Origin: Phorcus lineatus | Lineage: Eukaryota > Mollusca > Gastropoda > Trochida > Trochidae | Reading direction: 5' to 3' | Length of the DNA stretch: 64,000 bases | Assembly: GCA_921293015.1 (NCBI GenBank) | Contig: OV121093.1 | Span: forward strand, 23,880,622-23,944,621 | The notes under the pieces: model-generated | The model's database searches: none | What the model was told of the DNA's origin: nothing | What the model saw: only the letters and a program-made list of their open reading frames with translations | Made by a program: the position numbers and the translations under genes | Part shown: in pieces, positions 24,901 through 54,229 of the stretch | Layout of the letters: each line of letters opens with the position of its first letter | How positions within the stretch are numbered: position 1 is the stretch's first letter

Positions 24901-26138
24901 AAACAATGCAGTCATTCTGAACTTGGTGTTTAATAAAATATACATTTTTTAATTAGATTGATTAGACATCATTAGATATCAATTTGAAGAAAGTCGTGCT
25001 CATGTTGGAAAATGAATAATTGATTAAGACAATAACGATATAAAGTTGCTCCCCACCACGTGTGTCTCTTGACTAATAGTGAAGGTTGTTTATTGCAGTC
25101 CGAGTTCCGGTCCTTGCTGTGACACTTCTTGCCGCTATATCACAGCCGCTTCTACAACTGCGTGTAGGGACAACACCTCCTGTCTGCAGCCCGCATATAC
25201 TGTACATATCCTACACTCATGTGGCCGCTCGTCCCACCAGATACTTTATTTATCATTTAAAAAACCCGTAAATGTATGAGTTTAAATGATGAGTCATTTA
25301 ACGGCAAATGGTTCTGTTAACTATATACAAATTATCACCAGAAACGTATCATCACCTTATCATGACTTTGAGCTCTCATCTCACGTCACGTCCTGCACAC
25401 AAGTGCTACGAGGCACAGACAGACGTTGTTCTGCATTATATTATATTCTTTCTTAACTAGAGATTCCAAAGAACATATCAATTTGTATTGTCATTTCGAG
25501 TAAATAAACGCCGATTTTCATATTATGATATATAATGACCCACAGTTAAATATTACGTATGCACGTTTGGAAGTATGTCCCTTAACCAATCAACTGGCGC
25601 CTCCAGTCAGTGCCCAGCGTCGGTTTGGAAGCCTGACCGAACCCCATGTGAGGACCAGCGCGTGTGCATCAATGGGGTAGGTTCCACAGTTACTCCCGAC
25701 AGCAGCAATATCAGAACCAACGTTGATAAGGGAAACCTCCATTATGATGAGTGTCACTGTTAATGGATACATTCACTTCAATACGCTGGGCACCTTATTT
25801 ACAGAAGCCCACTGAAAGACTGCATGGAAAACAACAAGTACGACAGTCACTTTGTAACCAGTTCGTCATTGTCGGCTGTAATGTTCTATGATATATATGT
25901 AATGCTCATACAATAGCGGTTTCCAAATTAGTGACAAAGATGTGTAGTAGGTCTCACCTGTGTTGTAAGACCTGATTACGTAGATGGTTTCCAAGTTCGA
26001 GTGTAGTAGGTCTCACCTGTGTTGTAAGACCTGAATACGTAGCAGGTTTCAAAGTTCGACATGTAGCGGGACACTGTGTGTGTGTTGTAGACATGTGGCG
26101 GATTACTCTGTGTGTTGTCGACTTGTAGCTGGACACAG

Positions 26139-26170
<32 letters not shown>

Positions 26171-29100
26171 TGAGTGTGTTGTAGACAGCGGAATACTGTG
26201 TGTGTGTTGTAGACATGTAGCGGAATACTGTGTGTGTTTTGTAGACATGTAGCGGAAAACTCTCTGTGTGTGTGAGTGTGTGTTGTAGACATGTAGCGGA
26301 ATACTCTGTGTGTGTTGTAGACATGTAGCGGAATACTCTGTGTGTGTTGTAAACATGTAGCGGAATACTCTCTGTGTGTGTTATAGACTTGTAGCGGTTC
26401 TGCGTGTCTACAGAAGGAGCTAGAACCGTGTCAATGCTCCCCTTCTATATCCGGGGACTGGCGGGACGTCAAGCTATGCTCAATCTGCTGTCTCGTCGAC
26501 GGGAAGTGCAAGTGAGGCCAAACATTAAGATATTTTCTTTTAAAAGAACAATGTTCCTCGCTATATCATAGATTATCAGGCCCAAGATAGATGAAAATTT
26601 ATATGCTCAGAATCAGCTGTATTCTTCTTCTTTTTTTAAAATTTTCCATATTTTGTAATACAAGCAAAATAACATTGTATAAGGAAACTAGATAAATATA
26701 AACATATACACAAATCCACATTTGGCTCCTTCAATTCATTGTGCTAACAAAAACAAGACTATCTACTAAGTGATAAATGTAAAGTTGACCAATATCGAAA
26801 AAACATTTCTTCTGTGGCTGTTGACAAAAACAAATCTTAATAAATCGTAATAACGTACACTTGCCGTTTTAATGAATTTCAAATTTGGTGTAAAACCATC
26901 AATGCTGCATCTGTATATACACTGTTTGACTAATAAAATGATTGCATTTATAAGATTATTGTTTTACCCTTCATTATTGTTTACCCATCTTAACTTTGTT
27001 GAATGAAGAATAACATTCGTTGTGTGCTTTGCTTTAAAAGTTTAAAAATGATTATCGTCAGTTTGTGTTCCTTTTCTGAATGTGTCGGAGCAGCAAAAGC
27101 AGTCTTCAATGTACCTGACCGTCCGTGACCCTTGAACCCTTTATTAAGTCTGGTAGAAACTTCCGACTTAAGGTTCTAATAACTTATAGATTGATTTTAG
27201 GTCAAATCAGTTTTGGTGCGCTCAGTTTAGATACAATTATTGTAGAGAACAACCATGTTCTGGTTTTGAGTCAAGGTGTATCAACCTGGAATCAAGCAAA
27301 TGCTTATAGAGCTGTACAAACTTATGGCTATGGTAACGTTTTGTTTTATTGTTTATACAAACTACATTTTAAAAACAGTTAACAACATACACACAAACCT
27401 TAACACGATGTACTAAATGAGTTTATATTCGCTGCAGGCCTTCCAACGAAATAGCGGGGCTCCCTAATGGCAGCAAGCCTGCAGGTTCACCGTGTAACGA
27501 CTTCATGGGCTACTGTGACGTCTTCTACAGGTGTCGCGAGGTAGATCATTATAATGGGTAGACTATGTGTTCGCTCTTTATCTCAAGGACGGTACATTAG
27601 AGTAAACCACAAGATAGGACGTGTACTCTCATAGCCCATTGTAGCAGACAGGTTAATTAGGTGTCCTCCCCTACCCCAGTGTATTGGATAAGGTCAGTGT
27701 AGTGGACTGGGTAGGTGTGCTCCCATACCCCAGTGTAGTGGATAGGGTCAGTGTAGTGGGCAGGGTAGGTGTCCTCCCATACCCCAGTGCAGCGAATAAG
27801 AATGTGTCCTCCCATACTCCCGTTTAGTTGACAGGACATGTGTCCTATTGTACCCCAGTGTCATGGATAGGGTAGGTGTCCTCCCATACACCAGTGTAGT
27901 GGACAGGGTAGGTGTCCTCCCATACCCCATTGTAGTTGACAGGGTAGGTGTCCTCCAATACCCAAGTGTAATGGACAGGGTAGGTGTCCTCCAATACCCC
28001 AGTGTAATGGACAGGGTAGGTGTCCTCCCATACCCCATTGTGGTGGACAGGGTAGGTGTCCTCCAATACCCAAGTGTAATGGGCAGGGTAGGTGTCCTCC
28101 AATACCCCAGTGTAGTGGACAGGGTAGGTGTCCTCCAATACCCCAGTGTAGTGGACAGGGTAGGTGTCCTCCAATACACCAGTGTAGTGGACAGGGTAGG
28201 TGTCCTCCAATACCCAAGTGTAGTGGATAACGTCAGTGTAGCTCACAGGTTAGGTGTCCACCAATACTCCAGTGTAGTGGATAGGGAAGGTGTCCTCCCA
28301 TACTCCCGTGTAGTGGACAGGACAGGTGTTCTACTATACCCCAGTGTCATGGATAGGGTAGGTGTCCTACCATACCACTTCTTGATTTTTATATGGTTTA
28401 ATCTAAGTTGGATTTTGTTCCTTTAATCGTTAAAATCGACAATCAAAAGCAGTCAGACATTAACTTGAACTCCGATCACCTAGCCTCATTGTGTACACGA
28501 CAGTAAGTGTTGCATTTGAGTCTTCTTAACGCATGACATAAAGCATTTCTACCTCCTGCAGGTTGACCCGAGTGGCACGTTCAGGACGCTGAAGAAACTA
28601 CTGTCTCAGCAGAGTCTGGAGAGCATCAAAATGTGGATCACAGGGCACTGGTATGTGCTGGTGATATCCGTAATAGGCTTCGTCATACTAATGGTGAGTG
28701 TTGACTAGTGTATCATCTTCTTCACCATACTTATGGTGAGTGTTGACTAGTGTATCGGCTATTTGATCATACTCATGGTGAGTGGTGACTAGTGTATCAT
28801 AAGATAAGATAAGATAATACTTTATTATCCCGGAGGAAATTTGTTTTACATCAAAACGGCCTCGTACATAGATGGCTCACATTGTCCAACTATAAACAAA
28901 ACATCATGTAAAGAATATGACACATCAATAACAGCAACATATAACTTACAGTAGGATATAGATATTCAAAGAATAACAGGCTGAATAGTATTAATACTTA
29001 GTACTAGAAATTTCTAAACATTTATTCATTTCACAAATACTTGCTGGTATGAAGGAATGACGGGCTCTGTTCGTTTTTAACGAAGGTAGCCGAAAGCGAC

Positions 29101-32100
29101 GTCCAGAAGGAAGCAGTTCGAAATGATGTGATAGTATATGGGAGCTACCATTTCTTATCTTTGTACCTTTCTTTACTAGCTGGCGCTCATAGATAAAAGA
29201 AATGTTTTCGAATGGCATTCCGGTGATTTTTCTTGCGGTATTAACAATTTTGAAAATTTTGTTTTTGTTGCGAGCAGACAAACCTCCAAACCAACTTAAA
29301 AAATTATAAGTCAGCACACTTTGTATGAAAGTTTGTGTCAAGATAGATGTATCAATTGAAAATTTTCTTAAGCAGCGAAGAAAATAGAGCCGCTGTTGAC
29401 CTTTTTTTATAGATGTAATCAACGTGTTTTGAGAAAGAAAGATTTGAATCTAAAATAGTACCAAGATATTTATAATGATTAACTCTTTCAATTTCTTCAT
29501 TGTCAATTCTAATAGGTTTAAGGGGTTCCTTTTTACGCCGAAAGTCAACAATCATTTCCTTAGTTTTCTTTACATTCAGAAACAGAAAGTTATCTCTACA
29601 CCATGATAGAAAAAGTTCAATGCCTTGACGATAATTATGTTCTGAATCAGAAATGAGACCAGTAAGAGCAGCATCATCTGCAAACTTCACAGTAAATACA
29701 TTATCAAATGACGATTGACAATCATTGGTGTACAAAATGAAAAGTAAAGGCGACAAAACAAAGCCTTGTGGAGCTCCTGTAGAGGTTGATGTAATAGAAG
29801 ATTGGCATCCATTAGCATTTACATATTGTGTGCGATTAACCATAAATTCTTTAACCCATCTAGATTAAACAATTTATTCATTAAGAGGTGAGGTTGAATG
29901 GTATTGAACACTGAAGAGAAATCAATAAAGAGAATCCTTACATAATTAGTACATGTTTCTAGGTGAGAGAACACATTTTGAAGGAGGGTAATAGTTGCAT
30001 CCTCAGTGCCTCGCCTTGGTCTGTATGCAAACTGGAGAGGGTCAAGCAAATGACTGACATTATCTAATAAAAGCCTTTTCATAACCCGTTCAAAACACTT
30101 CATTACTATGGAGGTCAAAGCAACTGGGCGGTAGTCATTATTTTCGACAGGATGTGTTCTCTTCGGAACAGGAATAATATTAGATGTTTTCCAAAGATTA
30201 GGGATGGTAGCTGAGCTCACTGACCATTGGAATATTTTTTTTAAAATGGCGCAAAGTTGCTCTCCACATTCTTTCAAAACAATACCTGGCAATCTATCAG
30301 GACCACAAGATTTATGAACATTGAGTTGTTTAAATGACATCAAAACATCACTTTTTGTTATTGTTAATTCATCAGAAGGGGGAAGTGATGTGTACATCTT
30401 ATCAATTTAATTGGAAAAATCATGCGAGTCAAACCTCGAATAAAACAAATTCAATTCATTTACAAAAGTCTGGTTATCTTGAACTGCTATACATGACTGC
30501 TTTTTATTTATGCCTATAATGGATTTAAGTCCTTGCCATGCATTCTTCAAATTGTTTGTAGTAAACTGTTTCTCTATCTTTTCTTTGTAATTCTGTTTAC
30601 ATTTCGCTGTTTGGCACGCAATGTCCCTTTGAATTTCTTCAACTTTAAACATATCACCTGAACAAAATGCTCTTTTCTTGTCGTTCAATAAAGACTTGAA
30701 TTCCTTTGTCACCCAAGGTTTATTATTTGGGTAAACCTTGATTGTTCTATTTGGAATGACATTATCAACACAGAAATTAATATAATCAGTCACTGAATTT
30801 GTCAAATCGTCAAGATAATCCGATGCTTTTTCAAAAATGTCCCAATTTGTGCAATCAAAACACACTCTGAGTTGTTCGACAGAATCTTTTGTCCAAGCTT
30901 TGATTTGTTTCATAATTGGTTTTTCCGACTTCAGTTTCTGCTTATACGATGGAAGTAGATGAATGGCATTATGGTCCGAGGTTCCAATCGGCGGCTTTGC
31001 GTAGGACTTACAAGCGTCGGGAATATTGCCGTAGCACATATCCAAAGTCTTGTCTCGCCTGGATGGACATGTCACGTATTGGAAATAGTGTGGAAAAACA
31101 TTCTTTAGAGAACACTGATTAAAGTCACCCATAATGAAGTTTGGGGCATCCGGGGAAAGAGCTCCCAGTTTGTCTGTGGTCGTGCGGATTGATTCAGCGG
31201 CCGTGATTGAATTTGCATTTAGCGGAATATACACAACAGTTATAAAGATCTGTCCAAATTCTCGCGGTAAATAAAATGGCCTAAATGAAACTGATAATAT
31301 TTCAACATCCTTTGAACAAAACGTTTCACGTACAACGAAGTTTTTACACCATTTTTCATGTATTTACATACACAATCCCCCACCCGTTACCTTTTCCGTA
31401 ATACACAAGTCTCTATCCATGCGAATCGGTTGTCCAAATCCGGAGAGAGTAAGTGATCCTGTGTTCACGCTGTCATTGAGCCATGTTTCCGTAAAGCACA
31501 GAACACAACTTTCCCGGTATTCATACATGAATTTTACGCACGCTTCAAGGTCCGTCAGCTGTTTCCTCAAGGAACGCACATTCGCAAGCATCATACTTGG
31601 TAGTGGTGGTTTGTTCTTTCTCTCCCTCACCTTCCTTCTCAAGCCTCCTCTTTTCCCCCTCTTCCGTTTCTTAAAAGACCCGCTTTCTTTCCGACACTCC
31701 TCAGGGACATCAATCACAGAGTTTTCGGCCAGTGAAAAGTTACGTAACTCCAGAAGTTGAAGGCGGCCATAATGGATAACCGTAACGTCACCATGGCTAC
31801 CAGAGTAAACAATGCCAAACTGTCCGGCGATGATCAGCAGCACTATCAAGCCGTATTACACTCTTAAAAGACGTAACCGGTCCATTGCACTCTTCAAAAA
31901 TTGAAGAAAATACTCTTGCACAAATCCTGTACAACTTTTAAACTATAGGGAAACACATAAAAGTCATAAAATTGTATAATGCGAGAGAGCCGTTTTGATG
32001 CGTGTCGCCACGGAGCAGCGCCACCTATATCATACTTATGGTGAGTGGTGACTAGTTTATCATCTACTTCATCATACTTATGGTGAGTGGTGACTAGTGT

Positions 32101-35100
32101 ATCATCTTCTTCATCACACTAATGGTGAGTGGTGACTAGTGTATCGGCTACTTGATCATACTTATGGTGAGTGGTGACTAGTGTATCATCTTCTTCATCA
32201 TACTTATGGTGAGTGGTGACTAGTGTATCATCTTCTTCATCATACTTATGGTGAGTGGTGACTAGTGTATCATCTTCTTCATCATACTTATGGTGAGTGG
32301 TGACTAGTGTATCATCTTCTTCATCATACTTATGGTGAGTGGTGACTAGTGTATCATCTTCTTCATCATACTTATGGTGAGTGGTGACTAGTGTATCGGC
32401 TACTTGATCATACTAATGGTGAGTGTATAGTGTATCATCTTCTTCGTTATACTTATGGTGAGTGGTGACTAGTGTATCGGCTACTTGATCATACTAATGG
32501 TGAGTGTATAGTGTATCATCTTCTTCGTTATACTTATGGTGAGTGGTGACTAGTGTATCATCATCTTCTTCATCATACTTATACTTATACATATACTGAC
32601 ATAATGACAGTTTTATACGGCAAGGGTAATCTGACTATCCTTGAAAACAGCAATATGCTTGAATCATTACACCATTTTATCTTGATTTTCTTGACATTCT
32701 GCAATTATCTATAACTATTCACTTTACTTGTTTCGTGCGGAGGCTGCAGTAAACTTCAATACTAGGCATATACCAGGCAATTTTAAATCTTATTACGTAA
32801 GTACATGTAAAAATTACACATTGTTTCTTAGCTTTTGAAGTTTCACATTTTCTTCTGCTTGTTTCCAGCTTTATGTATTATGTAAAAGAGCGGCGTCCAA
32901 ATAAGCTATTATAGCTTGTTCGCCAATTTTTCTTTCATTTTTGGAAATAAAAATATGTTTAAATCAAAAGAAGTCATGAAGTTGTGGAATACTACTGGAT
33001 ATTCGTTATGGCAATTCTCTTTTGTTTGCTGGTATCATGAATAGATCAATAGAATGTTGCTTGTGTTTAACTATTGTTTGACCTTGACATCCATGTCAAA
33101 ACTTTGACTCCCTGTCTTGCTGGGCGCCTTCTCTATTTGAGCATGAACATACATACATACTTCATGTCTCTTATCATCCCTGTCTATTAGTCCCTTCCCT
33201 TCCTCATATTGTTTGAAGACATTCGCTTTGCCTTCGGTGGCTGCTACTTCAGCTTCCATGTCCTCTTCCTTCAAATATTTCAAATGAATTTCTTCTTCCT
33301 CTAATTTCTGTTTTCCTTCAAGATTGATTAGGAGGTCAGAAACTTGACTTTTCCAGCTTCTGCTCTCATTTGCTCGGTACAAGCAGCGGATTGTATAGGC
33401 GACGAGTTACTTCTAAGCAAACTTACAGAGTATGGTAGTTTGTGTCACGTGAGACAAAGCTTCTCTGACATGACAAGTCATTAAACTGACATGTTACTGG
33501 TTTATACTTCTAAAGAAATTCTTTAAGAATGATATCTTGACATCGAGGTTATCATAATTTCTTCTGTTTCTGCATCTGCATCTGCATCTCGACATAAAGG
33601 TAATACTAATTTCTGCTGTGTCTGCATCTGCAATTGGACATCGAGGTAATGAGAAGCATTGGAAAATCGATTAAACCTTATTATATTTCTTAAATCATAA
33701 TAAAAGAGAATAGCAGTTAGGGAGTAACTAATACCTTGATTCATCTACACACTCTTTTATCTTTGCTCTCTTAGGCTTTTTGAAGTTCTCTTTGTAAGTA
33801 CTAAATGCATCCAAAAAAACAACTAAATATGCCTTAAATTTGAAGAAATAATTTCTCATCAAGATCCGATTTTGATTTTTTGACTCGCTCTCAATGTCCA
33901 TTCCTAATCAACATTAAACAAATCCTTGTAACTATGCAATGAAATCGCAAGAATATTAGGTTTCGATTTTCTTGTCCCTGATGGCTGTGTGCAAAGTCAA
34001 TTGTTAGTAAAGGCAGCTCAATCATACACTTTCACACAGACCATTTTATTTTCTGCTTACATTTTGCCTTTCAATTGTGAACTTCGGATCGTTTGAATCC
34101 TCAACATCACATCAATATGATTCGATTTTCCATTTCAAAAAGCTTTCAAAATTGGTATGCCTTTTATTTGCAACATTGCAATGCACTAATTTTTGGGGTA
34201 GGACAATGTTTTTTACACATCTTGGTCTCAAACCTACAAAAAAGTCATTTTAAAAGTTTTAGATTTCAAGCATGATCGGTGTCAGCAGAAAAAAAACGAA
34301 AGAAATTTTAATGGTGGCTATCCTGCCTAGCCCATATTTTAAGGACGGTTAAGACCTCGTCTAGAAACTTTAAACATCATAGATGAAAGATGTCATTCCG
34401 AATATGAGTTATGTTATGTTTACATCACTTCTGCCAAGCCCATATTGTTTGATATCGATTTGAATGATATTAACATCTGGGGATCCAACCATTTGAGTTG
34501 TCCCAATACCGTTTTGTCCATTTTTCTAACTGGACCAAAAATTAAAAACGAATGAACAACAAACGTGAGACAATCACCAATAACAGGACCTGCAAAGAGC
34601 TTTCTCGTTTTTTAGTGAGATCGTGTCTACCTTAGCCTTGTGTATCATGGGTGTTTCAGTTGGTAATTGGAGGGTCAAAATTGGAATACATTCGCCAAAG
34701 ATTGAAAAACGGGTTTTGAGGGTCTGCGTGATAACGGTATCGCCGGGTATCAAGACGGGCGTGGGATTCACAATGTACTCGTTTATGCTTATATGCTTCA
34801 TAGGGTGACGTTGAACGTTACAAACCAAGACCGAAGATCTGGCGGTCGTTATTATGCAAGTGGTTACAGTAAGAACGGGGTAAAATAAGCATTACCAGCA
34901 AAACATAAAGCTTGTTGATGTAAAACGGTTTGGAAGTGAACAAGCACAGTGTAACCTGATTAGAATGGGTGCGACTGCACGGACTTTGAAAACAAGTACA
35001 AATGACATTTATCTACCGGCTATGAACCTTTTGATTTAGGAATTTAGACTAACAACACAGTCATGTCGATGTAATCTAATCCTTATCTCAACATATGAGG

Positions 35101-35948: not shown

Positions 35949-36139
35949 AACAGCAACAGGAATACAGTACGCCGTAATAAGATGCAAAGTTTAGATGTAG
36001 TGTAATGTATACGTAGCCAGTTTACTGTTCAACGTTTCCTAAGGACCTTGAAGTGTATTATTTATACTATTGTTCAAAATGTAAAGAACATACATTATGG
36101 GCCAGGACTTATTTGAACATCTAACACATTTGATGAACG

Positions 36140-36918
36140 ATGGATTACACTTTTCAGAGAGGGTTCGTTGTCATTATATCTGAATTAATCACCGAGGAAC
36201 AAAAATGCAAATGCAGTTGAAACCAACAAGAGGTCACAACCGATGATTATCGTGCCAATTACGTGTATGAGAGCCTCTTGCACGCACTTACATATCTTCC
36301 CATGCTGCTGTTCCTGGAGACCTGGTTGAACCACACTATTGGATTAAGATCCAGTGAACTAGCAGGCCATTCTATCCGCTCCATTGTATCAATTCGAAGG
36401 TCCTGTTCCACCACCCTTGGTCAATGTGGACGGGCATTTTCATAAGTTAAGGAAAATGTTATGAAGCTGAAGCGGCATTTTCGGAAGTTAAGTCAGATGT
36501 TATGTAGCTGAAGCGTACGCTTTGACGTAGACATCCAGAATCTCATATCCCTGTAACGAGCACCATTCATGGTGTCATTCTCAAGAACATGCAGATAAGT
36601 TTTCCATAACAGTTCTTTCCAACCCATTCCGAGACCAGACTTCCTCTTTACCTTTCATATTCATTAATGTTACCATATGCTTAATGTTGCCCCTGACTTT
36701 TCAAAACTCACCTATCTAACAATTAAGTCGAGACCAAATTTCAACTTATCTGTGAACAACCCAGGCCTACTATGAGCAGACCGATCAACATTCTCAGCAG
36801 CCAACTCTCGGCGTGCATCAGGATGAGTTTCAGTATAGGGGACACTGAATGACCATGTGTGTATGTCACACAGTCCATTCATATTTTCATATGTACATTG
36901 AAATAAACATGATTTCAT
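36140..36918 (-). pseudogene. Decayed Tc1/mariner transposase
   Basis: Reading the - strand from about 36918 in shifting frames gives ELAAENVDRSAHSRPGLFTD then KLKFGL (compare ENVDW...VLFTDESKFCL of Tc1), then LHVLENDTMNGARYRD, and lower down a DNAxPH-like segment followed by remnants of the QWPAxSPDLNPIE block. The order matches the Tc1 catalytic domain. Several frameshifts and stops interrupt it, and no clear terminal inverted repeats were found. It lies in the space after ADAM10's stop codon. Confidence 0.6.
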
Positions 36919-36919
36919 A

Positions 36920-38250: not shown

Positions 38251-38254
38251 CTTT

Positions 38255-39355
38255 GTTAACGAGTTCCGTCGAGTGAGAATAAGTCGAGTTACTTCTGTCA
38301 AGTGAGAATGAGTTGAGTTACTTCTGTTGAGTGAGAATGAGTTGAGTTACTTCTGTTTAGTGAGAATGAGTTGAGTTACTTCTGTCAAGGGAGAATAAGT
38401 TGAGTTACTTCTGTCAAGGGAGAATAAGTTGAGTTACTTATGTCAAGTGAAAATAATTTGAGTTACTTCTGTCAAGTGAGAATAAGTTGAGTTACTTCTG
38501 TTCAGTGAGAATGAGTTAAGATACTTCTGTCAAGTGAGAATATTTTGAGTTACTTCTGTCAAGTGAGAATGAGTTGAGTTACTTCTGTCAAGGGAGAATA
38601 AGTTGAGTTACTTCGGTTTAGTGAGAATGAGTTGAGTTACTTCTGTCAAGTGAGAATAAGTTGAGTTACTTCTGTCAAGTGAGAATAAGTTGAGTTACTT
38701 CTGTGGGTTGAGAATGAGTTGAGTTACTTTTGTGGGTTGAGAATGAGTTCAGATACTTCTGTCAAGTGAGAATAATTTGAGTTACTTCTGTTCAGTGAGA
38801 ATAAGTTGAGTTACTTCTGTCAAGTGAGAATAAGTTGAGTTACTTCTGTCAAGTGAGAATAAGTTGAGTTATTTCTGTCAAGTGAGAATAAGTTGAGTTA
38901 CTTCTGTTTAGTGAGAATAAGTTGAGTTACTTCTGTTGAGTGAGAATGAGTTGAGTTACCTCTGTGAGTTGAGAAAAATTTGAGTTACTTCTGTTGAGTG
39001 AGCATAAGTTGAATTACTTCTCTTGAGTGAGAATGAGTTACTTTTGTTGAGTGAGAATGGGTTGAGTTACTTCTGTCGAGTGAGAATAAGTTGAGTTACT
39101 TCTGTCGAGTGAGAAAAATCTGAGTTACTTCTGTTCAGTGAGAATAAGTTGAGTTACTTCTGTCAAGTGAGAATGTATAACTTCTATCGAAAGAGAATGA
39201 GCTGAGTTGCCTCTGTTGAGTGAGAATAATTTGAGTTACTTCTGTTCAGTGAGAATGAGTTGAGTTACCTCTGTGGGTTGAGAATGAGCGTAGTTACTTC
39301 TGTTGAGAATGAATTACTTTTTCCGAGTGAGAATAATTTGAGTTACCACTGTGAG
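38255..39355. repeat. About 29-bp minisatellite, roughly 37 copies
   Basis: The unit GTTGAGTTACTTCTGTCAAG then TGAGAATAA is repeated with substitutions and occasional short units (CTGTTGAG, CTGTTTAG, CTGTGGG variants). It is intergenic, between the convergent ADAM10 and ABHD2 genes. Unit length varies by a base or two, so no long open frame results. Confidence 0.93.
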
Positions 39356-39369
39356 GCAAAAAAAAACTA

Positions 39370-42300: not shown

Positions 42301-42775
42301 AGTTTCCAATAGACAAGCCATGCCATATTGCTAAATAAGACTTTCTAACAATTCTGGTCTGATTTTCTATAAAAAAAAGGGTTTTCATAAAATTGGGGAA
42401 AACATTCTAGAAAGTTGTAAAAATGGTCATTGTCAACAATTGTGCAAAGTTTGGTTGATAAACACCTAATAGCTTTTCAGAAATTTGACTGGGCAGAAAT
42501 ATTGCTATACAGCCAGAATAACTTTGGATTGGGAGTCTCAAAAGACAATACCCTTAAGATGTGACTCCTCTCTGATTTAGTTTTTATAAAACAAACCTTA
42601 TGTTATTTGTAAAGATGACCAGTGTTCTCCAGTTTCAATCTCAAGACCTGAAATCAGCCCTCATGAAGGTGTTTTCTGACCCAATATATTATGGTGCATG
42701 GACCAAAATCAAGCTGGGGTTCAACGTTATTATTTCAATTCCAATGTCAAGGGTGGTCAATGAATGCAAAAAGAA
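39370..42775. other. Intergenic / possible ABHD2 3' untranslated region
   Basis: AT-rich DNA immediately downstream of the ABHD2 stop codon on the - strand. Some of it is probably 3' UTR, but no decisive polyadenylation site could be picked among many AT-rich candidates. No coding sequence was recognised. Confidence 0.4.
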
Positions 42776-42933
42776 CTAATTTTGTTTTTCTTCAAACTGA
42801 ACCATCGCATTTGCAAATTCCAAAACAGCTCTGTCAATCCAAGTTTCTAGTTTCGGTGTGAAATATTCTCCTTCAAAAAATCCAAGATGGCCCCCGTGAA
42901 GTGTCTTCACAAATATAGAGTTTTCCTGAGATT
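42776..42933 (-). CDS. ABHD2: ABHD2 terminal exon with catalytic histidine
   Basis: The acceptor ATTTGCAG precedes 42933 and the TAG stop is at 42778-42776. It encodes ESQENSIFVKTLHGGHLGFF and EGEYFTPKLETWIDRAVLEF, ending QFEEKQN. HGGHLGFFEG is the signature of the ABHD1/2/3 group. Confidence 0.94.
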
Positions 42934-45900
42934 CTGCAAATAAATATCTTATGATTATTTCTCAACAATATAATAAAAACAACATGCTATATACCTCAAT
43001 GTAATGGCATACACATGACACAGATGTTGATGGTAGATGTGGTGTCAGACAAACTTATCTGCATTTTGATGGTAGATGTGGTGTCACACATACATATCTG
43101 CATGTTGATGGTAGATGTGGTGTCAGTCATACCTATCTGCATGTTGATGGTAGATGTGGTGTCAGACATACCTATATGCATGTTGATGGCAGATGTGGTG
43201 TCAGATATACATATCTGCATGTTGATGGTAGATGTGGTGTCAGACATACCTATCGGCATGTTGATGGTAGATGTGGTGTTATACATACTTATCTGCATGT
43301 TGATGGTAGATGTGGTGTCAGACATACCTATCTGCATGTTGATGGTAGATGTGGTGTCAGATATACCTATATGCATGTTGATGGTAGATGTGGTGTCAGA
43401 CATACCTATCTGCATGTTGATGGTAGATGTGGTGTCAGACATACGTATCTGCATGTTGATGGTAGATGTGGTGTTATACATACTTATCTGCATGTTGATG
43501 GTAGATGTGGTGTCAGCCATACCTATCTGCATGTTGATGGTAGATGTGGTGTCAGACATACATATCTGTATGTTGATGGTAGATGTGGTGTCAGACATAC
43601 ATATCTGCATGTTGATGGTAGATGTGGTGTCAGACATATGTATCTGCATGTTGATGGTAGATCTGGTGTCAGACATATGTATCTGCATGTTGATGGTAGA
43701 TGTGGCGTCAGCCATACCTATCTGCATGTTGACGGTAGATGTGGCATCAGACATACGTATCTGCATGTTGATGGTAGATCTGTTGTCAGACATACCTATA
43801 TGCATGTTGATGGCAGATGTGATGTCAGACATACGTATCTGCATGTTGATGGTAGATCTGGTGTCAGACATACATATCTGCATGTTGATGGTAGATGTGG
43901 TGTCAGACATACATATCTGTATGTTGATGGTAGATGTGGTGTCAGACATACTTATCTGCATGTTGATGGTAGATGTGGTGTCAGACATACGTATCTGCAT
44001 GTTGATGGTAGATGTTCTGCATGTTAATGGCAGATATGATGTCAGACATACCTATCTGCATGTTGATGGTAGATGTTCTGCATGTTGATGGTAGATGCGG
44101 TGTCAGACATACCTATATGCATGTTGATGGTAGATGTGGTGTCAGACATACATATCTGCATGTTGATGGTAGATGTGGTGTCAGACATACATATCTGCAT
44201 GTTGATGGTAGATGTGGTGTCAGACATACCTATCTGCATGTTGACGGTAGATGTGGCGTCAGACATACGTATCTGCATGTTGATGGTAGATGTGGTGTCA
44301 CCCATACATATCTGCATGTTGATGGTAGATGTGGTGTCAGTCATACCTATCTGCATGTTGATGGTAGATGTGGTGTCAGACATACCTATCTGCATGTTGA
44401 TGGTAAATGTGTTGTCAGACATACGTATCTGCATGTTGATGGTAGATCTGGTGTCAGACATACATATCTGCATGTTGATGGTAGATGTGGTGTCAGACAT
44501 ACGTATCTGCATGTTGATGGTAGATGTTCTGCATGTTAATGGCAGATATGATGTCAGACATACCTATCTGCATGTTGATGGTAGATGTTCTGCATGTTGA
44601 TGGTAGATGCGGTGTCAGACATACCTATATGCATGTTGATGGTAGATGTGGTGTCAGCCATACCTATCTGCATGTTGATGGTAGATGTGGTGTCAGACAT
44701 ACGTATCTGCATGTTGATGGTAGATCTGTTGTCAGACATACCTATATGCATGTTGATGGCAGATGTGATGTCAGACATACGTATCTGCATGTTGATGGTA
44801 GATCTGGTGTCAGACATACATATCTGCATGTTGATGGTAGATGTGGTGTCAGACATACATATCTGTATGTTGATGGTAGATGTGGTGTCAGACATACTTA
44901 TCTGCATGTTGATGGTAGATGTGGTGTCAGACATACGTATCTGCATGTTGATGGTAGATGTTCTGCATGTTAATGGCAGATATCATGTCAGACATACCTA
45001 TCTGCATGTTGATGGTAGATGTTCTGCATGTTGATGGTAGATGCGGTGTCAGACATACCTATATGCATGTTGATGGTAGATGTGGTGTCAGACATACCTA
45101 TCTGCATGTTGATGGTAGATGTGGTGTCAGACATACCTATCTGCATGTTGATGGTAAATGTGTTGTCAGACATACCTATCTGCATGTTGATGGTAGATGT
45201 GGTGTCAGACATACCTATCTGCATGTTGATGGTAGATGTGGTGTCAGACATACCTATCTGCATGTTGATGGTAGATGTGGTGTCAGACATACTTATCTGC
45301 ATGTTGATGGTAGATGTGGTGTCAGACATACTTATCTGCATGTTGATGGTAGATGTGGTGTCAGACGTACATATCTGCATGTTGATGGTAGATGTGGTGT
45401 CAGACAAACTTATCTGCATTTTGATGGTAGATGTGGTGTCACACATACATATCTGCATGTTGATGGTAGATGTGGTGTCAGTCATACCTATCTGCATGTT
45501 GATGGTAGATGTGGTGTCAGACATACCTATATGCACGTTGATGGCAGATGTGGTGTCAGACACACCTATCTGCATGTTGATGGTAGATGTGTTGTCAGAC
45601 ATACCTATCTGCATGTTGATTGTAGATGTGGTGTCAGACATACCTATATGCATGTTGATGGTAGATGTGGTGTCAGCCATACCTATCTGCATGTTGATGG
45701 TAGATGTGGTGTCAGACATACCTATCTGCATGTTGATGGTAGATGTGGTGTCAGACATACCTATATGCATGTTGATGGTAGATCTGGTGTCAGACATATG
45801 TATCTGCATGTTGATGGTAGATGTGGCGTCAGCCATACCTATCTGCATGTTGACGGTAGATGTGGCGTCAGACATACGTATCTGCATGTTGATGGTAGAT

Positions 45901-48900
45901 GTTCTGCATGTTAATGGCAGATATGATGTCAGACATACCTATCTGCATGTTGATGGTAGATGTTCTGCATGTTGATGGTAGATGCGGTGTCAGACATACC
46001 TATATGCATGTTGATGGTAGATGTGGTGTCAGACATACATATCTGCATGTTGATGGTAGATGTGGTGTCAGACATACATATCTGCATGTTGATGGCAGAT
46101 GTGATGTCAGACATACATATCTGCATGTTGATGGTAGATGTGGTGTCAGACATACATATCTGTATGTTGATGGTAGATGTGGTGTCAGACATACTTATCT
46201 GCATGTTGATGGTAGATGTGGTGTCAGACATACGTATCTGCATGTTGATGGTAGATGTTCTGCATGTTAATGGCAGATATGATGTCAGACATACCTATCT
46301 GCATGTTGATGGTAGATGTTCTGCATGTTGATGGTAGATGCGGTGTCAGACATACCTATATGCATGTTGATGGTAGATGTGGTGTCAGACATACATATCT
46401 GCATGTTGATGGTAGATGTGGTGTCAGACATACATATCTGCATGTTGATGGTAGATGTGGTGTCAGACATACCTATCTGCATGTTGACGGTAGATGTGGC
46501 GTCAGACATACGTATCTGCATGTTGATGGTAGATGTGGTGTCACACATACATATCTGCATGTTGATGGTAGATGTGGTGTCAGTCATACCTATCTGCATG
46601 TTGATGGTAGATGTGGTGTCAGACATACCTATCTGCATGTTGATGGTAAATGTGTTGTCAGACATACGTATCTGCATGTTGATGGTAGATCTGGTGTCAG
46701 ACATACATATCTGCATGTTGATGGTAGATGTGGTGTCAGACATACGTATCTGCATGTTGATGGTAGATGTTCTGCATGTTAATGGCAGATATGATGTCAG
46801 ACATACCTATCTGCATGTTGATGGTAGATGTTCTGCATGTTGATGGTAGATGCGGTGTCAGACATACCTATATGCATGTTGATGGTAGATGTGGTGTCAG
46901 CCATACCTATCTGCATGTTGATGGTAGATGTGGTGTCAGACATACGTATCTGCATGTTGATGGTAGATCTGTTGTCAGACATACCTATATGCATGTTGAT
47001 GGCAGATGTGATGTCAGACATACGTATCTGCATGTTGATGGTAGATCTGGTGTCAGACATACATATCTGCATGTTGATGGTAGATGTGGTGTCAGACATA
47101 CATATCTGTATGTTGATGGTAGATGTGGTGTCAGACATACTTATCTGCATGTTGATGGTAGATGTGGTGTCAGACATACGTATCTGCATGTTGATGGTAG
47201 ATGTTCTGCATGTTAATGGCAGATATCATGTCAGACATACCTATCTGCATGTTGATGGTAGATGTTCTGCATGTTGATGGTAGATGCGGTGTCAGACATA
47301 CCTATATGCATGTTGATGGTAGATGTGGTGTCAGACATACATATCTGCATGTTGATGGTAGATGTGGTGTCAGACATACATATCTGCATGTTGATGGTAG
47401 ATGTGGTGTCAGACATACTTATCTGCATGTTGATGGTAGATGTGGTGTCAGACATACGTATCTGCATGTGAGAAGGAGATGAGCTGGAAGACATATCTTT
47501 ATGTCAGCTGGAGAAGTTGAGGATGAAGTACATACCTGCATGTTGGCGGGGGATGTGGTGGAGAAAGTTAGGCACAATTGGGTCGTCTTCAGCATTTAGA
47601 AACATCATCGGTATCTTCACCTGGCAGAGTCAGTTGCAAAACATTGTTCACAGACCATTAAAATATTGCTTCTGTGATCAAAATAATGAAAACCTTAATA
47701 GGGTTAACAGGGTAACCATATTTAAAAATAAAAGCCTAGTTGAAACATATCAGTCACGACGAACACTTTAATGTGATTGTATTTGAGTAAATATCAATTT
47801 TTATTTGCGTGGTTAATTTTATCAATTAACCACTCTATATCACTAATGGGTGATAAAAGTTAATGCATTTGCAATTTTGTCTTAGGTTTTCATTACGATA
47901 AAGGGGGAAAATTTGTTAGAAAATGTTATTGCACCTCATGGGATAAATAACCAAACAATCCATAAGATGTGATACATAAATAGTATGTCTGATTAAGTGA
48001 TTAAGTAAGCATGGATTAGTGTATAAGAAAACATCACCTTATGAAGGAAAAATAATTTAATTAATTCAAATTGTGAATGAGTATAACAATTGTCAAAACA
48101 GTACGATGACTTTGGGCAAATAAAGTAGCATGGAAAATAGACCTACGTTGTTTTGTTTGAATTGAATACTACTGCAAGTAAAGCCATTGTTTTTATATGT
48201 TAAATAAAATCTTTGAAAAACTTCATCAAAATAGTTTTAAAATTAATCTTACTTGTTCATAGTATCTGGTTATAAATATCATGCAATCCAATGAATACAT
48301 TTAATGTAACAATCTCTATATTTATAATCATATTTAGGTACTTATTAGTGTTCATTTTTTAGGAATGATTCATTTATTGAATGTAAATTGTTTTTTATAT
48401 TACCTATTTGAAGAAGTGTTAAATGAATTTATTGTTTTTGTTCTTCGCAAATTTATAAATGCAGTATTTTTTTCACTGATTAAATTCAAAAGCCATGACG
48501 TAAAACACATACAATTTCCTAGTTGTTTATGCAATGAAAGTAGCTAATGCCTACCTTTTTCAAATAAAGAAAGAAGAAAACAGTGATAAACTCATAATAA
48601 ATGCGTCTTTCGTAAGTATTGGTGATGTAACTACATGATTTCCGATATGTTGCACTCGCCAAAAAGCAGTGTCACCCTAAACTGTAAATCAGGTATAAAA
48701 ATGAGAATCTTTGCAGCATTGACAGAAAAGATTGGTGTAAGTGATCAGGTTTTTGCTCGTGAAGAATACTAAGTTCAGTTAAATGTCTTGAAATAATAGT
48801 ATCACTTTTGCAAGACATTTAACTGTCTAAATGTCTTGCAAAAGTGATCCTATTATTTCAAGACATTTTATTGACTTGACTTCCACCTTTTCCTGGCAAT

Positions 48901-51900
48901 GAAGATGAACAGTCCCTGTCTACTTACATTGTTTATGTAGTGTGAGCTGCTGCACCATTTGTAGTAATCTTCAACGTGCTTGAAACCAGCACGCTTGCTG
49001 AAAGAGAGGGAACAATTGACTAAGAATGGGTAACAATTCTCATTTCTCTACTACGATACAGAAAAGACTATTGCTATATCCACTGCGATGTATTGGTAGT
49101 TTTAAAATTGTAGATTTACCAAGTATAGCAACAATAAGAACTGCAAGCAATGTTAGGCTGTCCATCTTCTAGGAAAGGCAGATATTTAAATAAAGCACTA
49201 TAAGCTTGAAAGCCTTTGCACTAATTTGACTTTGTAAGTTCTTGCAGGGAGGTGCATGAAGGGACATGTGACTGATGTATCCTGTTTAGGTCAGGCCAAG
49301 GACAGGTGCATGTAAGGGACGGTGTGACTGATGTACCCTGTTTAGGTCTAGTCAAGGGCAGGTGCATGTATGGGACGGTGCGACTGATGTACCCTGTTTA
49401 GGTCTAGTCAAAGTGATGTTGGTCTGGTCCAGTGCCTGCAGGTAGGTGAGCGTAAGTGATGATTTGAGTGACGTACCTGGTGTAGGTCTGGTCCAGGGCC
49501 TGTAGGGAGGTGCATGTTAGGATGGTCTCAGTGTCAAGCCTGCCATATTTCTCCTCTGCAACGGAGCTGAAGAGCATTTCACGATGACGTAGCAGTATCT
49601 TCCGTAGGTTCAGTGTCATGGCAAAAATGTACATGCGCTGAAGCATGCAGTTCATCAGGTAATTCTGTGCTCTGGAAGTTCATAGAAATTAATTTAATCA
49701 GCAAACAATGAATAAAAATGTTTCTCCTTCAATGATAAACTAGACAAATTGTGGTAAGTTCTTTACTGACCTAGGTTTTGATGAAGATATACAAAACGTT
49801 TGCTCATGGCACACATCATCACTTTGTAAGCTTCTTGTTCTTCATATACATTGCATCAATAAAAAGTATGATTAATTGCAACAAACATGAAAAATGTTTT
49901 TTTGATTATAATTAATCAAAGGTCAAGACACTGGGAACAAAGCTTAAGATATAATATAAATAGGGTTTGTCAAGTGATCAAAATATCATGTTGATGTTTT
50001 AAATATTGCAACCGTCACCACATTTGAATAAGGTAATCTAATGTGGACTGTCAATAAGTCCGAAGAGATTTGAGGCAATAGTTTATATGTTATCAAAGTA
50101 ACGTCTTTTAGTCTTTTATTCAGGTGTATGTAGGCCATCGGCCCATAATACAGTGGAACATACAGCCATTAAGCAGCTATTACGCAGCTTAGTTGCATGA
50201 TAAAGATAGATAGTCAGGTTTCTTACTACAAAAACATTTTCTACAGACATCAATGTATTAAATTTATGCAAAGAAGGATAGTTGTAATAGTCTACAGGTA
50301 TAAAAACGTGCGAAGATGATCGTAGGCATGGCAAAGCAAAACAAAATGATATTCATCATCAATATAAGTATCGGTATACATTTCACATAACCTTAGAAGC
50401 TTGGCTTATTGGTATATCTACCATTTTCAACATTTAATTGATGCAAGCTGCATCGAAGCTTTCAAGAGTAACACAGAATATTTTTACATCAATACAACTC
50501 ATATAAGTTTCCAAACCAAATACCTGTCTATACAGGAATATGAATGCGTTTTTGAGCTAACAGTTAATGATTTATTCCAGCCTTGGACATACATATACAG
50601 TGCCCTAGCCATATTGGCCCAATTGGTTTTACCATGCGATTCATCCAACAACAATTATAGCACTCTAGGAAAACGAGATATTGGCATATTCATCAACTGT
50701 ACTAGTATTTGATACAGCGTTTATAGCCATAGATAAAACTGGGATATCAGAGTAGCATGAAATTGTAGACAGTGAAGTTCCTGATCACAGTAAACTATTT
50801 GCACTGAGCTAGGGACAATAACCCACTTACCTGTTGGCATCATAGCCCTGACAGAGGGACATGCCAGCAATAAAGTGGGTCTGGTTGGCAGGGTCCTCCC
50901 CTAGGTACTTGGTCACCAGGTTAGCTCCAAGACTAAAACCCACTGCCAGGAACCGGCTCTCTGGGTACATTGCCCGCATGTCACGCACCATCACCCCAAA
51001 CTCTTCTGTACTCCCTGTAAATAAACATGTTACATATCACATACCATCACCCTAAACTCTTCTGTACATCCTGTAAATACCGGTAAACATGTTACATGTT
51101 GCATACCATCAACCCAAACTCTTCTGTACACTCTGTAAATAAACATGTTACATATCACATACCATCACCCCAAACTCTTCCGTACTCCCTGTAAATAAAC
51201 ATGTAACACATCAAATACCATCATCCCAAACTCATCTGTACACTCTGTAAATAAACGTGTAACATATCACATACCATCATCCAAAACTCGTTTGTACATC
51301 CTGTAAATAAACATGTTACATATCACATACCATCATCCAAAACTCTTTTGTACATCCTGTAAATAAACAATTTACATATCACATACCATCATCCAAAACT
51401 CTTCTGTACACCGTGTAAATAATCATGTTACATATCACATACCATCATCCAAAACTCTTTTGTACATCCTGTAAATAAACAAGTTACATATCACATACCA
51501 TCATCCAAAACTCTTTTGTACACTCTGTAAATAAACATGTTACATATCACATACCATCATCCAAAACTCTTTTGTACATCCTGTAAATAAACAAGTTACA
51601 TATCGCATACCATCATCCCAAACTCTTCTGTACACCCTGTAAATAATCATGTTAAATATCACATACCATTACCCAAAACTCTTCTGTACACCCTGTAAAT
51701 AAACATGTTACATATCGCATACCATCCCCCCAAACTCTTCTGTACACTCTGTAAATAATCACATTACATGTGGCATACCATCACCCCAAACTCTTCTGTA
51801 CACCCTGTAAATAATCATGTTACATATCGCATACCATCCCCCCAAACTCTTCTGTAGACTCTGTAAATAAACAAGTGACATATCACATACCATCATCCAA

Positions 51901-53011
51901 AACTCTTTTGTACACTCTGTAAATAAACATGTTACATATCGCATACCATCACCCCAAACTCTTCTGTACACCCTGTAAATAATCATGTTAAATATGGCAT
52001 ACCATCCCCCCAAACTCTTCTGTACACTCTGTAAATAAACAAGTGACATATCGCATACCTTCACCCCAAACTCTTCTGTACACCCTGTAAATAATCACGT
52101 TAAAAATCGATACCATCACCCAAAACTCTTCTGTACACTCTGTAAAGAAACATGTTACATGTTGCATACCATCAACCCAAACTCTTCTGTACACCCTGTG
52201 AATAATCACGTTACATATCGCATACCATCACCCCAAACTCTTCTGTACACTCTGCAAATAAACATGTTATATGTGGCATACCATCATCCCAAACTCTTCT
52301 GTACTACCTTTAAATAAACATGTTACATGTTGCATACCATCACCCCAAACTCTTTTGTATCATAACTCTTGGTAACTAGTTATAGCTCAACAAAACAGTT
52401 GGCTATTTGGTGGCAGTTAGAAGTCGGCAAAAACTTATAAGCCGCACCGACTAAGTGGGGACTTTTTAGTAACAACCTTACTCATAATCATCTGTCAAAA
52501 CGTGTTGACTTACCAAAGTCAAAGATTCTAGGTGATGTAAGGGGGACATCCCGCAGAGCCCCAAGATGGTTAAGGACTGCGACACGGTAGCCGCTGCGTC
52601 GTACCAAGTCAACGAGTGTGCGAATATAGCAGCTCTCACTACTGTTAGCAATACCTGGACACACCAGCATTGTGTAGTCACCTGTTGCAAAAAAGTCAAC
52701 CTTTAAAGACTGATAAGATAAAAATATGGGACAATTCTAATTTGATAGTTACAATGTGTGGTAATTTATGTAAAAAAAATTCATGGATAGCATTTATTTT
52801 CAAGACCTAGATACAATCATAAGAAAATCAGATACCGGCTGAAGCATGTTGTGCAAGTGGGTGGTACACATCAAAAGTAGCAGTGGCTCCATCAGGCATC
52901 ACATGTTCGTGCCGCTCCCCTTTCAGATCAGGGTACTGGATGCGCCCCATCTTTCCGTACACTATCGTCTGAATATGCCCGCTCTTCCCCCACAGCAAAG
53001 GAGGGATGTAC
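42776..53011 (-). CDS. ABHD2: ABHD2-type alpha/beta hydrolase, 5'-partial, seven exons
   Basis: Monoacylglycerol-lipase-type serine hydrolase of the ABHD1/2/3 group (in mammals a membrane-associated enzyme). Exons on the - strand: 53011-52836, 52681-52514, 51014-50831, 49671-49477, 48997-48928, 47620-47536 and 42933-42776, with compatible phases. They encode YIPPLLWGKSGHIQTIVYGK, VCPGIANSSESCYIRTLVDL, the nucleophile elbow GFSLGANLVTKYLGEDPANQ, the acid motif FLNAEDDPIVPNF and the catalytic histidine motif LHGGHLGFFEGEYF, ending EEKQN and TAG. All three triad residues are present, so the enzyme looks functional. The N-terminal membrane-anchor exon(s) were not found upstream within the window. 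Four exon edges are sources of adjacent tandem arrays. Confidence 0.94.
43017..47469. repeat. 39-bp minisatellite, about 115 units, filling the last ABHD2 intron
   Basis: The unit TGCATGTTGATGGTAGATGT then GGTGTCAGACATACCTATC is repeated for about 4.45 kb. It is punctuated by 22-bp truncated units ending GATGTTC at 44012, 44524, 44958, 45899, 46255, 46767 and 47201. Intervals between these marks equal whole numbers of 39-bp units plus two short units (12, 10, 23, 8, 12, 10). The array occupies nearly all of the 4.6-kb intron. Long open frames on both strands (for example MQIGMSDTTSTIN repeated on -) follow from the 13-codon unit and are not taken as genes. Confidence 0.97.
47536..47620 (-). 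CDS. ABHD2: ABHD2 exon with catalytic aspartate
   Basis: Acceptor TGCCAG, donor CATGCAG|GTATGT. It encodes VKIPMMFLNAEDDPIVPNFL and then HHIPRQHA. AEDDP carries the acid residue of the triad. The last 25 exon bases plus GTATGT are the evident parent of the 39-bp array that fills the next intron. Confidence 0.94.
47640..48780. other. ABHD2 intron, nothing recognised
   Basis: Strongly AT-rich intron between the exons at 47620 and 48928. Apart from the hairpin that follows it, no structure was seen. Confidence 0.4.
48781..48868. repeat. Near-perfect 41-bp inverted repeat (hairpin)
   Basis: AAATGTCTTGAAATAATAGT runs into ATCACTTTTGCAAGACATTTA. After a loop of about 6 bases (ACTGTC) the sequence returns as its reverse complement with a single mismatch. 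It lies in an ABHD2 intron about 60 bp from the 70-bp exon (48928-48997). Confidence 0.9.
48928..48997 (-). CDS. ABHD2: ABHD2 exon, 70 bp
   Basis: The acceptor TCTTTCAG|C and donor AACAAT|GTAAGT bound a 70-bp exon encoding SKRAGFKHVEDYYKWCSSSH and YINN, equivalent to the vertebrate GYNSLKEYYEEESCMRYL segment. Confidence 0.9.
49237..49470. repeat. About 56-bp array derived from an ABHD2 5' splice site
   Basis: Four to five diverged copies of GATGTACCCTGTTTAGGTCT then AGTCAAGGGCAGGTGCATGT lie just outside the exon ending at 49477. The real edge reads GACGTACCTGGTGTAGGTCT and GGTCCAGGGCCTGTAGGGAG on the + strand, so units copy the exon's last 40 or so bases and its donor. Confidence 0.85.
49477..49671 (-). 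CDS. ABHD2: ABHD2 exon, cap/helical region
   Basis: Acceptor CTTCCAG, donor CACCAG|GTACGT. It encodes AQNYLMNCMLQRMYIFAMTL to LTCTSLQALDQTYTR, the helical insertion between nucleophile and acid motifs (LRKILLRHREMLF resembles KKIILSHRQALF of the vertebrate protein). Its 3' edge is repeated downstream. Confidence 0.9.
49680..50825. other. ABHD2 intron, nothing recognised
   Basis: AT-rich intron. A 103-codon + strand open frame at 50401-50712 has no family match and no support from splice context. Confidence 0.4.
50831..51014 (-). CDS. ABHD2: ABHD2 exon with nucleophile GFSLG
   Basis: Acceptor TTTACAG|GG, donor CAACAG|GTAAGT. It encodes STEEFGVMVRDMRAMYPESR, FLAVGFSLGANLVTKYLGED and ends CQGYDANR. 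The GxSxG serine is intact. The acceptor and first 35-40 exon bases are the template of the array at 51015-52370. Confidence 0.95.
51015..52370. repeat. 56-bp array derived from an ABHD2 3' splice site, about 24 copies
   Basis: The unit ACCATCACCCCAAACTCTTC then TGTACACCCTGTAAATAAAC and ATGTTACATATCACAT repeats without a gap from the exon's 5' edge. Read on the - strand, each unit carries TTTATTTACAG|GGTGTACAG then AAGAGTTTGGGGTGATGGT, which is the real acceptor and exon start with one or two changes. Since 56 is not divisible by three, consecutive units rotate through frames and encode TEEFGVMV-like peptides. Confidence 0.95.
52514..52681 (-). CDS. ABHD2: ABHD2 exon with CPGIANSSE
   Basis: Acceptor GCAACAG, donor GACTTTG|GTAAGT. 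It encodes GDYTMLVCPGIANSSESCYI through VLNHLGALRDVPLTSPRIFD. It holds the strand and oxyanion-side loop (HLGA) conserved in ABHD2. Confidence 0.94.
52836..53011 (-). CDS. ABHD2: ABHD2 exon with YIPPLLWGKSGH
   Basis: Acceptor TGCTGCAG|G, donor GCCG|GTATCT. It encodes YIPPLLWGKSGHIQTIVYGK, then MGRIQYPDLKGERHEHVMPD and ATFDVYHPLAQHASA. The ATG at 53028 (MALCC) lies in the acceptor region and is probably not a start codon. The upstream array consists of copies of this acceptor. Confidence 0.92.
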
Positions 53012-54139
53012 CTGCAGCACAAAGCCAACCATCAAACAAACAGTGGAGAAGGGGGAAGATGTACCTGCAGCACACAGCCTACCATCAAACAAACAGTGGG
53101 AAAGAGAGAAGATGTACCTATAGCACACAGCCTACCATCAAACAAACAGTGGAGAAAGGGGAAGATGTATCTGCTGAACACAACCAACCATCAAACAAAC
53201 AAATTGGGGAAGAGAGAAGATGTACCTGTAGCACACAGCCTACCATCAACAAACAGTGGAGAAGGGGGAAGATGTACCTATAGCACACAGCCTACCATCA
53301 AACAAACAGTGGGGAAGAGAGAAGATGTACCTATAGCACACAGCCTACCATCAAACAAACAGTGGAGAAAGGGGAAGATGTATCTGCTGAACATAGCCAA
53401 CCATCAAACAAACAGTGGGGAAGGGAGAAGATGTACCGTACATATATAGCCAACCATCAAACAAACAGTGGAGAAGACAGAAGATGTATCTGCAGAACAC
53501 AGCCAACCATCAAACAAACAGTGGAGAAGGGAGAAGATGTACCTATATAGCCAACCATCAAACAAACAGTGGGGAAGGGAGAAGATGTATCTGCTGAACA
53601 CAGCCAACCATCAAACAAACAGTGGGGAAGAGAGAAGATCTATCTGCTGAACATAGCCAACCATCAAACAAACAGTGGGGAAGGGAGAAGATCTACCTAT
53701 ATAGCCAACCATCAAGTACACAGTGGAGAAGGGAGAAGATGTACCTGCAGCACAGAGCCGACCATGAAACAAACAGTGGAGAAGGGAGAAGATGTACCTA
53801 TATAGCCAACCATCAAACAAACAGTGGTGAAGAGAGAAGATGTATCTGCTGAACATAGCCAACCATCAAACAAACAGTGGGGAAGAGAGAAGATCTATCT
53901 GCTGAACATCGCCAACCTTCAAACAAACAGTGGGGAAGGGAGAAGATGTACCTATATAGCCAACCATCAAACAAACAGTGGGGAAGAGAGAAGATGTATC
54001 TGCTGAACACAGCCAACCATCAAACAAACAGTGGGGAAGAGAGAAGATCTATCTGCTGAACATCGCCAACCTTCAAACAAACAGTGGGGAAGGGAGAAGA
54101 TGTATCTGTAGCACACAGCCAACCATCAAACAAACAGTG
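53012..54139. repeat. About 53-bp array derived from another ABHD2 3' splice site, about 21 copies
   Basis: The unit ACCTGCAGCACACAGCCAAC then CATCAAACAAACAGTGGAGA and AGGGAGAAGATGT starts at the exon edge and runs for 1.1 kb, with shorter variants lacking the CTGCAGCACA portion (TACCTATATAGCC). The real acceptor, on the + strand, is GGATGT|ACCTGCAGCACAAAGCC, so the units copy the acceptor region and about 15 exon bases. Confidence 0.93.
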
Positions 54140-54154
54140 GGGAAGGGAGCCCCT

Positions 54155-54220
54155 GGCGGGATACGAACCACAGACCTCTTGATGCGAAGATGAACGCGCT
54201 AACCACTGCACTATCCCGCC
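54155..54220 (-). ncRNA. tRNA-like sequence / tRNA-derived SINE head
   Basis: On the - strand, a 66-nt segment starts GGCGGGATAGTGCAGTGGTT and ends TCGTATCCCGCC. It has an A-box-like TAGTGCAGTGG and a B-box-like GGTTCGTATCC, and its ends GGCGGGA/TCCCGCC pair. It is about six bases too short for a canonical tRNA, and no proper anticodon and T stems form. A tRNA pseudogene or SINE head is therefore more likely than a working tRNA. It directly abuts the end of the ABHD2 acceptor array. Confidence 0.5.
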
Positions 54221-54229
54221 CCCGCTGAC

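Follow-up and report, generated by a model that had tools for sequence, protein, structure and literature searches.

Tandem arrays at splice junctions of two adjacent genes in the gastropod Phorcus lineatus: probable junction-spanning duplications grown into intronic minisatellites

Why should tandem repeats in the introns of two genes lie against or close to exon edges, and do their units really carry the sequence of the splice junctions beside them? The question is raised by a 64,000-nucleotide (nt) stretch of the Phorcus lineatus genome (assembly GCA_921293015.1, contig OV121093.1, positions 23,880,622 to 23,944,621 of the forward strand; hereafter the window), which holds the 3' exons of an ADAM10 gene on the + strand and of an ABHD2-like gene on the - strand. 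A first-pass annotation of this DNA had placed arrays at six junctions, three donors and three acceptors, and had described each repeat unit as a copy of the adjacent junction. Tandem Repeats Finder (TRF) detects an array at each of these locations, with the same division between donors and acceptors and with 2.8 to 113 head-to-tail copies per array block; the arrays sit on the intron side of the junctions. We consider it probable that short duplications spanning splice junctions arose independently and grew into intronic minisatellites, tolerated since each exon edge keeps one functional splice site.

Junctions are labeled here as D (donor) or A (acceptor) followed by the position of the exon edge. 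The gene models comprise 17 exons and 32 junctions; two ADAM10 edges, 25206 and 25612, were guessed, and neither bears an array. When joined at exon-proximal sites, the last five ADAM10 exons and the seven ABHD2-like exons give an open frame to the natural stop, and because exon-proximal joining yields one open frame, the splice sites bordering the arrays were taken to be those in use.

With regard to the resemblance itself, units at four junctions (D28693, D47536, D49477, and A51014) contain exon sequence, and a fifth (A53011) possibly does; the description of the units as junction copies is thus clear at four of six places, while it is weak at A53011 and fails at A26414. Each exonic edge was compared, by itself, with the array beside it, and the score was set against those of 5000 shuffled versions of the edge; the comparison used a 30-nt edge and the TRF unit or, for D49477, a 45-nt edge and the array DNA at 49237-49470. 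At A51014 (score 51; 0 of 5000 shuffles), a 56-nt array of 24 copies (50987-52359, - strand) nearly fills the intron, and its unit consists of 28 nt of intron end and 28 nt of exon start; the first 28 nt of the ABHD2-like exon at 50831-51014 (STEEFGVMVRD..., - strand) are present in the unit, the exonic match being 27 of 28 nt. D49477 (score 45; 0 of 5000) is the donor of the ABHD2-like exon at 49477-49671 (AQNYLMN...LDQTYT, - strand) and is bordered by another 56-nt array (49237-49476, - strand) with 2.9 TRF copies and, adjoining the exon, one more that has diverged. In its unit, exon-end sequence of up to about 45 nt runs into the intron start. The array as TRF delimits it (49250-49411) ends 66 nt off the exon edge, with diverged copies in the gap, and the distal end of the array is another exon-end piece (15 of 16 nt alike), as expected from slippage between short direct repeats flanking the first duplication.

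The longest series of copies is found at D47536 (score 30; 0 of 5000), where a 39-nt array (43017-47469, - strand), in which TRF counts about 113 copies and which shows higher-order repeats, nearly fills the intron between the ABHD2-like exon at 47536-47620 (VKIPMMFLNAEDDP...RQHA, - strand) and the last exon of that gene (42775-42933, - strand). The unit consists of about 25 nt of exon end and the intron start, with four additional nt, read from the sequence, between the exon-end copy and the copy of GTATGT. In TRF coordinates (43024-47469) the array ends 67 nt off the exon edge, again with diverged copies in the gap. Larger blocks recur at 43994-47326 with start-to-start spacings of 512, 434, 941, 356, 512, and 434 nt, which fits unequal exchange. 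At D28693 (score 22; 5 of 5000), the last 16 nt of the ADAM10 exon at 28562-28693 (ending ...GFVILM, + strand) are present in a 42-nt unit that continues with 26 nt of intron start. This array had been reported as one run from 28679 to 32590; that reading was ruled out, as the stretch is mostly retroelement, and the repeats form two blocks on the + strand, 28678-28800 (TRF 28684-28800) and 32026-32590 (TRF 32029-32582; 13 scored units), split by a 3.2 kb insertion. The insertion (28801-32025, - strand) is a degenerate retrotransposon resembling a long interspersed nuclear element (LINE), whose matches to reverse transcriptase fall in two different frames and whose ends were read from the sequence; it has a TATCT-type tail at its end.

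The two remaining acceptors are different. Upstream of A53011, the edge of the ABHD2-like exon at 52836-53011 (YIPPLLWGKSG..., - strand), a 53-nt array of 22 copies (53005-54149, - strand) has a unit in which the intron end with its AG is followed by no more than 7 exonic nt (GTACATC), which are exact and abut the AG before the sequences diverge; the edge test was weak (score 15; 266 of 5000 shuffles). Upstream of A26414, the edge of the ADAM10 exon at 26414-26511 (KELEPCQC...DGKC, + strand), an array with a unit of about 32 nt (26058-26397, + strand) comes no nearer than 17 nt to the exon, the unit alignment stops 6 nt short of it, and the edge test found no exonic identity (score 9; 2724 of 5000 shuffles).

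Two broader comparisons were also made, one matching every TRF unit to both strands of the 17 modelled exons (60 shuffles) and the other scanning 31 junction edges against their own introns (100 shuffles each). Only A51014 (51; null maximum 26) and D47536 (30; null maximum 22) rose above every shuffle in the all-exon test, in which the A53011 and A26414 units did not pick their own exon; A51014, D49477, and D47536 stood out in the scan of 31 edges, and A53011 did not (78 of 100 shuffles at or above). Three other edges in that scan were considered as degenerate junction repeats and taken as chance among 31 tests: D14357 beat all 100 shuffles (score 21) but the match lies 2540 nt from the junction and in no TRF array, A25612 scored 18 (1 of 100 shuffles), and D26511 scored 22 at 90 nt from the junction (1 of 100). 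An array at 27749-28376, near ADAM10 exons, was likewise rejected as junction-derived, its exon identity lying within the null of the all-exon test.

The first-pass annotation had further argued that chance adjacency would not give six such arrays, a claim that hardly holds for position and does hold for exon identity. With a contact counted wherever an array came to within 70 nt of a junction, random placement of the arrays within their introns gave 3.9 contacts on average, and 7.3% of trials reached at least six (P(>=6) 0.073); closeness to exons was dropped as evidence after this shuffle, and it is uninformative because the arrays nearly fill several introns. By contrast, with random founding positions for 12 intronic arrays, 0.56 junction-spanning arrays were expected and four or five were seen, with P(>=3) 0.012, P(>=4) 8.8e-4, and P(>=5) 4.1e-5; since it was this pattern of junction arrays that led to the choice of the window, these chance figures are to be taken as a lead rather than as a result for the genome as a whole. 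Both calculations assumed 2000 nt for the intron upstream of A53011 and counted the two D28693 blocks as one array. Thirteen two-copy rows, the short or two-copy rows at 7409, 11709, 12877, and 12949, and overlapping TRF rows were dropped before the count, as were the arrays at 4559 and 4818 upstream of the first modelled exon and the intergenic array at 38264.

That intron-filling arrays must touch exons and that the resemblance has been over-read is an explanation to which these figures lend something, given the 3.9 contacts expected by shuffling, the lack of exonic identity at A26414, and its weakness at A53011; it is a possible account of those two acceptors. It is refuted by exon identity at A51014, D49477, and D47536 and accounts poorly for D28693, where the match abuts the exon end and was reached by only 5 of 5000 shuffles, so that as an explanation of the arrays as a whole we regard it as improbable.

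Several results weigh against junction-spanning duplication that is merely tolerated, and some of them speak for chance at D28693. In the all-exon test the exon end at D28693 was the best match of its own unit, yet within the null (22; maximum 27), and in the scan of 31 edges it did not stand out (56 of 100 shuffles at or above); the D49477 TRF unit tied between two exons in the all-exon test (23; maximum 27) and did not exceed the null. In addition, the excess over random founding suggests that something beyond tolerance may favor junctions. This excess leads to a rival explanation, namely a lineage-specific, genome-wide process that founds minisatellites preferentially at junctions, for example through splice-site breaks tied to transcription or R-loops, or through slippage between recurring splice-signal motifs. 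Besides the low probabilities of the junction-spanning count, it draws on the occurrence of the arrays in two genes on opposite strands and at donors and acceptors alike; however, it rests on one window, picked for its pattern, and on a test with an assumed intron length, no clear junction identity is seen in 8 of the 12 intronic arrays (7 of 12 when A53011 is counted), and closeness by itself is not significant. We therefore consider such a process rather unlikely, although it is the foremost of the alternatives weighed here.

Under independent junction-spanning duplication, each array would have been founded separately by a short tandem duplication across an existing splice junction, presumably by slippage, and would have grown by slippage or unequal exchange. 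A duplication within an exon would be purged by selection, whereas one across a junction would be tolerated because exon-proximal splicing restores the former mRNA. The copy at the exon edge would remain in use, kept by selection on the protein, while the other copies would sit in the intron, where they would drift and homogenise like satellite DNA, with their decoy sites probably neutral. We infer that copying ran from the exon edge into the intron, because the exonic parts lie in open coding frames and the copies in introns. Among the 15 pairwise comparisons of the six units no kinship was detectable (the strongest pair had 8 of 200 shuffles at or above, unremarkable for 15 tests); a common origin of the units was rejected, and the lack of detectable relationship speaks against a mobile element. 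Nor was similar sequence at many unrelated sites, as in introner-type mobile introns, found in the comparison of the six units within the window. Among the causes that the first-pass annotation had listed, replication slippage or break repair fits these observations, while RNA-templated repair, selection for decoy sites, and intermediates of intron gain found no positive evidence.

Selection would have kept the copies as decoy splice sites if, for example, they delayed splicing or gave rise to regulated nonsense isoforms, and GT or AG is indeed retained in nearly all scored copies of four arrays: 13 of 13 in the second block at D28693, 97-100% of 106 copies at D47536, 96-100% of 24 at A51014, and 95-100% of 22 at A53011. 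Ranked among the columns of the unit, however, retention of the dinucleotide stood at 0.72, 0.75, and 0.77 at D47536, A51014, and A53011, respectively, and at 1.00 at D28693, where many columns are invariant. Because three of the four arrays do not retain GT or AG clearly better than they retain other columns, the column comparison gives no visible sign of selection for or against decoys, and homogenisation accounts for the retention. A frame continued past the three donors that bear arrays runs into a stop after 15, 73, or 32 nt of intron, and on the upstream side in-frame stops occur 8 codons before A53011 and 9 codons before A51014; as predicted from these frames, use of the intronic copies at these five junctions would therefore bring a stop at donors and a stop or frame shift at acceptors. 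Decoys maintained by selection are thus a very improbable explanation.

Equally improbable is RNA-templated repair, in which the pre-mRNA of a junction would have been copied into the genome. While units that hold exon and intron together resemble pre-mRNA, tandem growth head to tail can proceed without RNA, no trace of reverse transcription came to light at the arrays, for which no systematic search was made, and with the present data this route is inseparable from DNA slippage. Intron gain via tandem duplication of AGGT-containing exon segments is a known model, and it had been proposed that the arrays are its frozen intermediates. The likeness lies in a duplicated segment that contains AGGT, the D47536 and D49477 units carrying AG beside a GT-type donor. 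In that model, however, a new intron arises inside an exon, whereas each of the present arrays fills a pre-existing intron with copies of a single end: each unit holds a single kind of the gene's own site, the copies are bounded by a donor and an acceptor already in place, the introns that the arrays enlarge are complete with both sites, and no new intron between duplicated exon segments was found. Of all the explanations weighed, we give this one the least credence.

The independent duplications that we favor have parallels elsewhere. In humans, a minisatellite of interferon-induced gene 6-16 (IFI6) is reportedly a source of multiple splice donors; there, too, a tandem array sits at an exon-intron boundary with a donor within the repeats, although that case concerns a human gene and a short unit, whereas here several junctions of two adjacent genes are involved, donors as well as acceptors. 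The Adh locus of amphioxus is said to carry intronic minisatellites called mirages; these are likewise intronic minisatellites, in an invertebrate chordate, and possibly linked to exon-intron borders, although that relation is uncertain. Judged by these precedents, junction-spanning arrays belong to a known kind, and we make no claim that they are absent from print.

It is conceivable, but doubtful, that splice junctions are preferred birthplaces of minisatellites in this lineage, that introns grow in large part as their exon-intron borders are copied again and again, and that they are left with about a dozen to more than 100 intact-looking decoy sites for the splicing machinery to ignore. If the excess holds genome-wide, intron growth would be tied to splice junctions, and the arrays would offer a natural system for studying how the spliceosome chooses one site among near-identical neighbors, as in the last ABHD2-like intron, with its roughly 113 copies and GT kept in nearly all of the 106 scored. 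If it fails genome-wide, these would be ordinary minisatellites whose founding unit spanned a junction by happenstance.

The two genes were identified as follows. ADAM10 (6664-35949, + strand) has exons for the metalloprotease, disintegrin, and cysteine-rich parts and for the membrane end; its product matches PDB entry 8esv_A (E 8.3e-98) as well as PF21299 (ADAM10_Cys-rich) and reprolysin families. The ABHD2-like gene, which runs on the - strand from 53011 down to 42775, encodes an alpha/beta hydrolase with a match to PF00561. Its protein scored 97 bits against NF008218, under that model's cut-off of 267, and matched nothing in PDB better than E 0.02; the name ABHD2, which we adopt as an assumption, follows the first-pass annotation and the human protein.

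Other repeats were noted in the window. The distal end of the 53-nt array is abutted by what we take to be the tRNA-like head of a short interspersed nuclear element (SINE; 54150-54225, - strand, placed from sequence), a tentative label, ARAGORN and Rfam giving no match; the intronic part of that array could be a SINE tail, and the window has one SINE copy. A 51-nt array at 8815-9578 (17 codons, 98% alike) lies in an open frame (8765-9838) with a helix-turn-helix fragment of a Mos1-type transposase (PF17906, 9501-9838); it is a minisatellite that grew within the remains of a transposon, and the closest modelled splice site is 703 nt away. On the - strand, 58310-62029 contains an open frame of 1240 amino acids with endonuclease, reverse transcriptase, and zf-RVT domains, that is, a LINE-type second open reading frame. 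Finally, one ADAM10 intron holds two arrays of similar 22-nt units (11354-11569 and 13614-13743), about 2 kb apart, which have the palindrome TTGAAATTTCAA in common.

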